35,057 nt of DNA, taken from Coriobacteriia bacterium. GTDB lineage: Bacteria; Actinomycetota; Coriobacteriia; WRKU01; WQUG01. Each line of letters begins with the position of its first letter. The stretch's first letter is position 1. Below the pieces are notes generated by a model, which was not told the DNA's origin, made no database searches, and was given only the letters and a program-made list of their open reading frames with translations. Shown here piece after piece: positions 2,966 to 21,157 of the stretch. The position numbers and the translations under genes are program-made. The DNA lies in the NCBI GenBank assembly GCA_009785795.1, contig WQVN01000008.1, forward strand, positions 1 through 35,057, written 5' to 3'.

Positions 2966-3123
2966 ACGAATTTGCTCCCTCTCTGTCTAATGCATGCTAG
3001 GCACACTCTAAGATAACAGAATAGCAAATATTTACTCGAAAACAAGGTGTTGGCAATTGCGATGCTGGATACTTGATAGACAGGTATGCTAGCTCATTAG
3101 ACAATTGCCAGTAAGGAGCGCCA

Positions 3124-3924
3124 ATGCTACAAGCAATGAACTTGAGTAAGACCTTTGATGGATCTACAGCTCTTAATGAATTGAACTGTACCGTCCCGAC
3201 AGGAGCCATTTATGGAGTTGTCGGAAGTAATGGTGCAGGAAAGTCAACCTTTTTGCGCCTGCTTGCAGGCATTTATCGACCCGACAATGGGCGTGCAACC
3301 TTAAACGGTGTTGATATTTACGAATGCGTCCAAGCAAAAGAACAGATAGTTTTGGTACCAGACGAACTGTACTTTTTACCACAGGCAACATTGCAACGTA
3401 TGGCTGCACTGTACCATCGCAGCTTTCCACATTTTTCTCTTGATCACTTCAATGCATTGGTTCAATTATTTCAGTTGAATCCAACAAAGCCTATTCGAAC
3501 CTTCTCAAAAGGAATGAAGCGTCAGGCAGCTATTATTTTGGCACTGGCAGCAAAGCCGCGCTACTTGCTACTAGATGAAGCATTTGACGGACTGGATCCT
3601 TTAATGCGTGATGTTGTGCGCAGGATTCTTGTGCATGATGTTGTTGCACGAGAAACGACAATCGTCATCTCGTCTCATAGTTTGCGCGAACTTGAAGACA
3701 CCTGCGATTGGCTTGCACTACTACATAGAGGTACGCTGGTTTTAGAAAGCACAAAAACAGCATTGATTGAGCAGGCACCAAATGGCTTGGAAGCGCTGTT
3801 TGTCGAACGCTTAAATCAGGTTGGCTATACTTTTGACGATGCGCTTGCAACGCTCTATGCGCAACAGAGCGTACAAGCAAGAGCCGAAACACAAGAGGGA
3901 ATGCAGGAGGTGACCGTAGCATGA
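3124..3924 (+). CDS. ABC transporter ATP-binding protein (YtrB/bacitracin-type)
   Basis: 266 aa; GSNGAGKSTFLRLLAGIY, FSKGMKRQAAI, YLLLDEAFDGLD. SD-like AAGGAG just upstream of the ATG. Confidence 0.9.
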   Translation: MLQAMNLSKTFDGSTALNELNCTVPTGAIYGVVGSNGAGKSTFLRLLAGIYRPDNGRATLNGVDIYECVQAKEQIVLVPDELYFLPQATLQRMAALYHRSFPHFSLDHFNALVQLFQLNPTKPIRTFSKGMKRQAAIILALAAKPRYLLLDEAFDGLDPLMRDVVRRILVHDVVARETTIVISSHSLRELEDTCDWLALLHRGTLVLESTKTALIEQAPNGLEALFVERLNQVGYTFDDALATLYAQQSVQARAETQEGMQEVTVA

Positions 3925-19222: not shown

Positions 19223-19252
19223 TTGACAGTCACTTATTTCTCGTAGTAGGAT
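19223..19252 (+). promoter_or_regulatory. Putative sigma70-type promoter for the T-box transcript
   Basis: TTGACA (19223-19228), 18-nt spacer, TAGGAT (19247-19252). Confidence 0.6.
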
Positions 19253-19262
19253 ACTGAGCAAC

Positions 19263-19589
19263 TAAAGGCGATGACAGAGAGAAAGATGTCTTACCCTTGC
19301 ATGCTGAGCAGGCGAAGCCTAGTCAGCAAGGAGAGATACTGCGGTTGGTGCAAGCAGGTGCAAGCGGACATGCAATATACACTCTTGAGCTGATGTGCTG
19401 AAATGGTCAGACTCCTCCACAAGAAGAGCTTGCCCGCAATAGGTGCATTCGGAAGCCCACCGTTATTGGGTACGGGGTTGCTTGACCCCAAACGAAGCGG
19501 CGACCTGCGTTACTGGTCGCAATCAGGGTGGTACCGCGGGAACCTTTCTCGTCCCTGGGCAAGTTCAGGCTTGTTCAAGGACGTTTTTT
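19263..19589 (+). promoter_or_regulatory. T-box riboswitch leader, predicted Tyr-specific (UAC specifier at 19378-19380)
   Basis: Stem I 5' GACAGAGAGAAAGATGTC pairs with GGACATGCAATATACACTCTTGAGC (AGAG:CTCT and ATGTC:GACAT). Apical GGTTGGTG; Stem III GCGACC...GGTCGC (19500-19520); T-box AGGGTGGTACCGCGG (19525-19539). Confidence 0.92.
19550..19589 (+). terminator. T-box-controlled intrinsic terminator
   Basis: CGTCC-C-TGGGCAAG / CTTGTTCA-A-GGACG stem followed by TTTTTT (19584-19589). Confidence 0.9.
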
Positions 19590-19644
19590 CGTTTTTGGAC
19601 AAGAAAGCGACAGGTCAAAATGGCCTAAGAAAGGAAGTACCAGC

Positions 19645-21093
19645 ATGACGAAAGTAAAGTTCCTATCGGGAGAATCTATCCCCCTCGAGATGCACAAAGT
19701 GCGCATGGTGCAAAAGGTTAATCTGCATCCTATTGAGGATCGTTTGGATGCAATGCAAGGAGCGGGCTTCAACACCTTCCTGTTAAAAAACCGCGATGTC
19801 TACCTAGATATGTTGACTGACAGTGGTGTTAACGCCATGAGCGACAATCAGTATGCTGCGATGTTTCAGGCAGATGACAGCTACGCGGGCTCAGAGACAT
19901 TCTACCGCCTAGAGGCAACGTTACAAGACATGTTTGATGTGACACACTTCTTGCCGGCTCACCAAGGGCGTGCCTGCGAAAGTATCATTTCAGAAATTTT
20001 AGTACAGCCTGATTCAACCGTACTAATGAACTATCACTTCACTACGTCGAAAGCACATATTACCTTGCGTGGTGGCAAAGTTGAAGAAATTATCATTGAT
20101 GAGGGTCTTAGCATCACCAGCGACCACCCCTTCAAGGGCAACATGGACATCGACAAGCTAAATGAGGCAATTAATCGACTGGGTGCTGACAACATCGCCT
20201 TTGTTCGCCTAGAGGCTGGAACCAATCTTATTGGTGGACAACCAATCTCATTGCAAAATATGCGAGAAGTAGCCAAAATTTGCCGCGATGCAAACATCAC
20301 CACTGTATTTGACGCAAGTCTTTTGGCAGATAACCTGTACTTCAATAAAGTGCGTGAAGCAGAATTTGCTGACGCTGACCTGCGTGATGTCACTCGCGAA
20401 ATGGGCAGACTCATGGATATCACCTACTTCTCTGGACGCAAACTAGGCTTTGCGCGCGGTGGTGGAATTCTGACAAGTGACGATACACTATTTACAAAGA
20501 TGCGCTCCCTAATTCCTTTGTACGAGGGCTTTCTTACCTACGGAGGAATGTCAGTTCGCGAAATGGAAGCTATGTCAGTTGGTCTTGAGGAGACTCTCGA
20601 CTTTGATGTGATTAGTCAGACTCCTATTTTTGTTGAGGCATTTACTGAGGAGCTCACTGCACGTGGCGTTCCCGTAGTGACGCCCCCAGGCGGTCTGGGT
20701 TGTCACGTAGATGCAACAGCGTTTTGCGATCATTTGGCACAACCTGAGTATCCTGCAGGTGCACTTGCTGCTGCTTTATTTATTTGTAGTGGTGTGCGTG
20801 CTATGGAGCGCGGTACCATGAGTGAAGAGCGCAGATCAGATGGTACAGAGCCTATGGCAGAAATGGAGCTAGTACGCCTTGCACTCCCCCGTCGCGTATT
20901 TACTCTGTCGCAGGTTAAATATGCAGCGGATCGTCTAGCCTGGCTGCACCAGAACCGTGAACTAATTGGCGGACTTGAGTTCTGCGAGGAACCAGAAGTG
21001 CTCCGCTTCTTCTTTGGTCGCCTGAAAGCTACGAGCGACTGGCCAGAAAAACTAGTCACAGCCTTCCGTGCCGACTTTGGAGATAGTCTATAA
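19645..21093 (+). CDS. Beta-eliminating lyase, tyrosine phenol-lyase/tryptophanase family
   Basis: 482 aa from ATG 19645 (SD-like AAGGAAG). LLTDSGVNAMSDNQ, SYAGSETFY, PAHQGR, FTTSKAH, GGQPISLQNMR, FSGRKLGFARGGG, SGVRAMERGTM, VRLALPRRVFT, LRFFFGRL. Track start at 19528 lies inside the T-box and is rejected. Confidence 0.88.
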   Translation: MTKVKFLSGESIPLEMHKVRMVQKVNLHPIEDRLDAMQGAGFNTFLLKNRDVYLDMLTDSGVNAMSDNQYAAMFQADDSYAGSETFYRLEATLQDMFDVTHFLPAHQGRACESIISEILVQPDSTVLMNYHFTTSKAHITLRGGKVEEIIIDEGLSITSDHPFKGNMDIDKLNEAINRLGADNIAFVRLEAGTNLIGGQPISLQNMREVAKICRDANITTVFDASLLADNLYFNKVREAEFADADLRDVTREMGRLMDITYFSGRKLGFARGGGILTSDDTLFTKMRSLIPLYEGFLTYGGMSVREMEAMSVGLEETLDFDVISQTPIFVEAFTEELTARGVPVVTPPGGLGCHVDATAFCDHLAQPEYPAGALAAALFICSGVRAMERGTMSEERRSDGTEPMAEMELVRLALPRRVFTLSQVKYAADRLAWLHQNRELIGGLEFCEEPEVLRFFFGRLKATSDWPEKLVTAFRADFGDSL

Positions 21094-21121: not shown

Positions 21122-21157
21122 AGTAAAAAGCTCCCGAATATTCGGGAGCTTTTTACT
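21122..21157. terminator. Bidirectional intrinsic terminator
   Basis: AGTAAAAAGCTCCCGAAT/ATTCGGGAGCTTTTTACT perfect inverted repeat between convergent genes, T tracts on both strands. Confidence 0.92.

Follow-up and report, generated by a model that had tools for sequence, protein, structure and literature searches.

T-box leaders belong to a family in which the uncharged cognate tRNA stabilises an antiterminator. Tyrosine T-boxes are known for tyrS, the tyrosine biosynthesis operon, phenylalanine-4-hydroxylase in the B. cereus group and NhaC-type transporters (PMC2494555), and the words "lyase" and "phenol" are absent from the text of that survey. Canonical tpl, encoding tyrosine phenol-lyase (TPL, EC 4.1.99.2), is under the control of TyrR and CRP, as stated in a title cited in PMC11259132. 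In TPL, Thr124 and Phe448 are required for activity with tyrosine and Arg381 for phenol elimination (PMC5805759 and references therein), and Thr124, Met379, Arg381 and Phe448 together set phenol specificity and elimination (PMC5805759). The routes to tyrosine listed in a gut-microbiome survey are of the PheA/TyrA type only (PMC9026213). Here we analyse a stretch of 35,057 nucleotides from a Coriobacteriia bacterium (contig WQVN01000008.1), referred to as the window, in which a T-box leader precedes a gene of the TPL/tryptophanase family (Table 1). Like the known tyrosine T-boxes (PMC2494555), the window leader is of class I, has a Tyr specifier and a terminator/antiterminator switch, and is expected to be turned on in tyrosine starvation. 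Unlike those, it lies in front of a TPL/tryptophanase-family gene and its stem I has an extra arm. A literature search for T-boxes together with tyrosine phenol-lyase or tryptophanase yielded no description of this pairing, although an earlier mention in T-box surveys is possible.

The leader of the window lyase

The preliminary description had reported a full transcriptional T-box ahead of the lyase ORF with UAC as specifier codon, and both observations are confirmed. A cmscan of the region recovers RF00230 over model positions 1-219 of 219, including stem I, stem III and the T-box sequence, with 84.3 bits (E=8.1e-19), and the Rfam alignment gives the same codon within the loop ..GCAAUA-UAC-A-CUCU..; the register 2 nt upstream, which had been noted as well, is UAU and likewise Tyr. 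The Rfam gathering threshold of RF00230 is 93 bits, so that the window leader is missed at the curated cut-off, unlike the leaders of most relatives, which score above it. Both stem I pairings proposed before were located, namely AGAG (19276-19279) with CUCU (19382-19385) and AUGUC (19286-19290) with GACAU (19367-19371). The UGGU bulge is complementary to a tRNA with an A73 discriminator; tRNA-Tyr was not found in the window's genome, whose assembly is 60% complete. The stability of the terminator was matched by none of 200 shuffles, and since antiterminator and terminator both need positions 19550-19554, the two structures are mutually exclusive. Plain minimum-free-energy folding was uninformative, both for the whole leader (z -1.2) and for stem I (z -0.1). 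The promoter that had been suggested upstream could be located, but it has to be regarded as a candidate, as chance alone would yield 0.9 sites of this kind. A Trp T-box in the window is ruled out by codon and bulge.

Table 1. Features of the T-box/lyase locus, in window positions.
Feature	Position	Strand	Basis or remark
Candidate sigma-70-like promoter, TTGACA-18-TAGGAT	19223..19252	+	10/12 matches
T-box leader, RF00230, transcriptional	19262..19559	+	cmscan, full model length
Stem I with extra arm of ~28 nt absent from the Rfam consensus	19264..19389	+	Rfam alignment
Specifier codon UAC (Tyr), followed by A19381	19378..19380	+	Rfam alignment; also by inspection
Intact conserved T-box sequence AGGGTGGTACCGCGG, UGGU bulge at 19529-19532	19525..19539	+	sequence and Rfam alignment
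Antiterminator, -12.9 kcal/mol	19524..19557	+	folding
Intrinsic terminator, hairpin 19550-19583 and T6 19584-19589, -18.5 kcal/mol, z -4.5	19550..19589	+	folding
Candidate Shine-Dalgarno sequence AAGGAA	19631..19636	+	by eye
PLP-dependent beta-eliminating lyase, third TPL/tryptophanase-family branch, 482 aa	19645..21093	+	profiles, tree, residues, model
Hairpin followed by T-run 3' of the lyase; candidate terminator, single-gene unit	21125..21155	+	by eye

It is highly improbable that the T-box of the window lacks function, whether through degeneration or through a specificity other than Tyr. The score under the gathering threshold, the insertion in stem I and the existence of close relatives without a T-box would fit such a decay, but the full-length match, the intact T-box sequence and the strong, exclusive terminator argue against it. 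The same holds for the similar T-box of an Oscillospiraceae locus (L002), which agrees with the window leader in the specifier loop (AATATACACTCT) and in much of stem I, and for the fact that both registers specify Tyr. We consider the window leader almost certainly to be a Tyr T-box. Assuming that it responds to tRNA as is usual for the T-box family, charged tRNA-Tyr would leave this class I (transcriptional) T-box in the state that keeps the lyase off. During tyrosine shortage, uncharged tRNA-Tyr would pair with UAC and with the UGGU bulge, the latter through its ACCA end, and in the tRNA-bound leader the antiterminator would be stabilised, whereupon transcription would reach the lyase gene.

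Placement of the window protein in the TPL/tryptophanase family

The window ORF, starting with ATG at 19645, matches the profile PF01212 (Beta_elim_lyase). Its earlier designation as a TPL/tryptophanase homolog is correct at the level of the family, but does not extend to TPL itself: the protein reaches 432.6 bits with the TPL profile TIGR02618, which is below the equivalog cut-off of 720.7, and 315.8 bits with the tryptophanase profile TIGR02617, again below the cut-off (825.8). It passes the broad "tryptophanase" subfamily model NF009709/PRK13238 with 571 bits, a label that is probably misleading for this protein. Searching 85,462 genomes, one per species, yielded 80 loci; about 60 of them group at 50% identity or more and span Coriobacteriia, Bacillota, Spirochaetota, Bacteroidota, Verrucomicrobiota and others. 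When 154 sequences were placed in a tree, every complete member fell into a single branch (support 100) apart from TPL and tryptophanase, with a long stem of 0.8 changes per column. Judged from profiles and tree, the window protein is a member of the TPL/tryptophanase family, but neither a canonical TPL nor a canonical tryptophanase. Members of the third branch, which occur in Bacillota, Coriobacteriia, Bacteroidota, Spirochaetota and other phyla, are liable to be annotated as tryptophanase. This annotation is carried by a member with 66% identity that lies on a Rhodobacter megaplasmid (L214, NZ_CP023549.1, 232892-234337), where it adjoins an Rrf2 regulator and is located near an ABC transporter cluster.

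The three groups are cleanly separated by six positions (124, 217, 256, 343, 381 and 448), which read T/L/R/L/R/F in all 92 complete branch sequences, T/R/K/H/R/F in 37 TPLs and D/R/K/H/[ILV]/H in 31 tryptophanases. The residues Thr124, Arg381 and Phe448 of the TPL phenol pocket and the acid Tyr71 are kept and are invariant in 58 sequences where aligned, and Met379 and Lys257 of TPL are also present in the window protein. The changes in comparison to TPL are Arg217Leu, Lys256Arg, Asp258Leu, His343Leu and Phe346His, among which Arg217, Lys256 and His343 are invariant in the compared 37 TPLs and 31 tryptophanases, the branch having Leu, Arg and Leu instead. As both Arg217 and His343 are lost, the branch reaction may differ, or phenol may be no substrate. 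The AlphaFold model of the window protein (pLDDT 85) has TPL as best PDB match, with a TM score of 0.90 and an rmsd of 2.4; a comparison with the PDB revealed no solved structure of any branch member, and no enzymology on any member was found in the literature. Thus, the window protein resembles TPL with about 40% identity, the same fold and the retained pocket residues, but differs from it by its separate branch, a score below the cut-off and the tyrosine-starvation leader. With tryptophanase (EC 4.1.99.1) it shares the family, the fold and the match to the broad subfamily model, but not the equivalents of Asp137 and His463, which are Thr and Phe in the branch.

The window's genome is available as an assembly of 856 kb, in which one T-box was detected. 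By lyase similarity, a termite-gut-type Coriobacteriia MAG is among its nearest relatives, and the lyase is 83-86% identical to those of family relatives without a T-box, several of which adjoin transporter genes. Genes from two spirochaete MAGs and one Oscillospiraceae MAG cluster with the window lyase in the tree (support 100), the Oscillospiraceae gene being that of L002 with the similar T-box. The lyase was likely exchanged between bacteria of one habitat, perhaps the insect gut, as the sample names suggest. T-boxes as such are normal in the window's bacterial family, since further T-boxes there (L190-L198) lie, as judged from the sequence, ahead of a leuA-like gene, of trpB-like genes (with UGG) and of genes for TrpX-like ABC binding proteins.

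Leaders of branch genes in other genomes

The pairing of a Tyr T-box with a branch lyase recurs, with 29 loci found in addition to the window. T-boxes, each matching RF00230, are located upstream of 30 distinct branch members, which comprise the window, 14 of the first loci and 15 from a sample of 399 Bacillota genomes. Of these 30 loci, 29 have UAC as specifier (28 of 29 without the window); codons were assigned with a simple regular expression, and several loops misassigned in this way were re-read from the Rfam alignments or the loop. The exception, L105, has the specifier UGC (Cys) and an unchanged UGGU bulge, which still suits a tRNA with A73. This T-box (- strand, 2997-3217) represents either a recent specificity change or a sequence error. 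Within the Bacillota sample, T-boxes occur at 18 of 30 branch loci, whereas the 40 TPL/tryptophanase genes taken from it have none (Fisher p=4e-9). In each of two genomes, G245 and G169, a branch lyase with T-box coexists with a canonical TPL that has none. The well-supported branches of the tree require the T-box state to have changed at least six times, and outside Bacillota most branch members are without a recognised Tyr-sensing leader. Locus L085 has a second T-box (3211-3540) downstream of its T-box-led lyase.

These data bear on the regulatory logic, which had been described as paradoxical. The paradox presupposes a tyrosine-degrading TPL, for which the sequence gives no support in view of the cut-offs and of the separate branch with its invariant residues. 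An ordinary TPL whose T-box would bring about a truly paradoxical, starvation-induced catabolism, for example for pyruvate/ammonia or for phenol signalling, is improbable: the TPL-like pocket, the fold and the nearest PDB matches are in line with it, and TPL is reversible, but the score is far under the TPL cut-off, the branch is separate and has invariant changes, and no sampled TPL/tryptophanase gene carries a T-box. Moreover, some neighbouring genes of the branch lyases are tyrosine-supply genes and a canonical TPL coexists in some genomes. As the leading view, an ordinary TPL under paradoxical control was rejected on the basis of the family cut-offs, the separate branch and the 40 controls.

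Besides T-boxes, 6 of about 92 branch loci have a leader ORF with a Tyr run ahead of the lyase, compared to 1.5+-1.1 in dinucleotide shuffles; among the amino acids tested Tyr has the largest excess, followed by Phe. In a Bacteroidales genome (L043) the leader peptide MKAMNSYCYYYCYCLQ... is followed by a strong intrinsic terminator, an arrangement like the leader-peptide attenuation of amino-acid genes, which is not seen in the window. A spirochaete (L054) has the Tyr-rich leader MFFMFDSDYFCYRYTYLSPSN, and a member from the window's own genus without T-box (L115) has the leader MFRFRQQCRYYY, ending in a stop codon that overlaps the ribosome-binding site. In L019 and L060 a Tyr-run leader (DSDYYY) is located between T-box and lyase, and L086 and L093 are similar; these short ORFs (e.g., MDSDYYY...) end at or overlap the lyase start region and possibly provide a second, translational control by tyrosine. 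Six loci without T-box (L005, L017, L050, L051, L082, L100) contain tandem 8-nt units upstream, such as GGTAGGAC GGTAGGGT GGTAGAAA. Some copies are imperfect, and in most of these loci an intrinsic terminator follows the units. Leaders of this GGTAGG type, searched in four members without T-box, gave no credible Rfam match and possibly represent an undescribed attenuator.

Proposed role in tyrosine supply

In several lineages the lyase genes have leaders that would respond to tyrosine shortage, and the p-hydroxyphenyl pocket is retained; therefore, the simplest reading is that of a tyrosine-supply enzyme. Some operon partners are of the same kind. At L008 the T-box and lyase are followed by tyrS, 25 nt downstream of the lyase, at L014 by a DAHP synthase gene after a gap of 61 nt, and in the Coriobacteriia loci L001 and L115 the lyase adjoins a TrpX-like ABC transporter. 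A neighbour conserved across the branch was not found, and informative partners are few. From regulation and partners a role of the lyase in tyrosine supply is very likely. In a more distant member of the Coriobacteriia (L117, lyase 60% identity) the gene 12 nt after the lyase resembles metA. This neighbour, the Cys specifier of L105 and the lack of a neighbour conserved over most loci would fit an unrelated substrate, with tyrosine control serving a non-supply role such as an undescribed tyrosine-homeostasis or interbacterial circuit. This is quite unlikely as well, because tyrosine is sensed by T-boxes and leader peptides in several lineages, operons with tyrS, DAHP synthase or TrpX-like genes exist, and the pocket is kept.

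If the lyase supplies tyrosine, it would most likely do so via C-beta-to-aryl bond formation. In the synthetic direction, TPL chemistry yields tyrosine from phenol, pyruvate and ammonia, or from phenol and serine. Of the explanations offered earlier, a lyase running in reverse is the best supported, because the pairing recurs with UAC and is joined by Tyr-rich leaders and tyrosine-supply neighbours (tyrS, DAHP synthase, TrpX-like). The reaction itself can be proposed from the pocket residues, which suggest, tentatively, that the lyase may make tyrosine from phenol. Alternatively, tyrosine might be formed by amination of 4-hydroxyphenylpyruvate or be released from another beta-substituted amino acid. 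The regulatory and operon evidence fits any tyrosine-forming step, the loss of Arg217 and His343 together with Lys256Arg and Phe346His suggests an altered chemistry, and PMC11259132 cites a reference with a side transamination by TPL in its title. Furthermore, those T-box-led members in whose genomes chorismate synthase was not found (L007, L019, L020, L034) would need a shikimate-independent precursor, but this gap could reflect incomplete genomes. We regard such other chemistry as unlikely, since Tyr71, Thr124, Arg381 and Phe448, which are used in phenol elimination and addition, are all invariant.

A replacement of a missing TyrA by the lyase was considered, but is not supported. TyrA is absent from 16 of 40 branch genomes versus 42 of 93 genomes with only TPL or tryptophanase (p=0.70), and from 31 of 261 genomes without a homologue. 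The absence thus tracks lineages with any family member and is not specific to the branch, so that the lyase seems to provide a further or salvage route to tyrosine rather than to substitute for TyrA. The four genomes without a detected chorismate synthase gene would fit salvage, with the reservation that they may be incomplete.

Taken as a whole, the proposal of a Tyr T-box that switches on a third-branch tyrosine-supply lyase, which likely uses synthetic TPL chemistry, is in our view somewhat favoured by the evidence. With more caution, the entire third branch might be an anabolic tyrosine synthase, providing a TyrA-independent route that is induced by tyrosine starvation via T-boxes or leader peptides. 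Lyase chemistry of this kind has long been in industrial use for the synthesis of L-Tyr and L-DOPA, and the proposal, if true, would give it a testable role in vivo. In that case a widespread gene labelled "tryptophanase" would serve tyrosine supply and neither indole- nor phenol-producing catabolism, annotations of indole and phenol production in gut and environmental genomes would need correcting, and predictions of auxotrophy would change. Beyond this family, T-boxes combined with comparative genomics can point to the direction in which a reversible enzyme operates.
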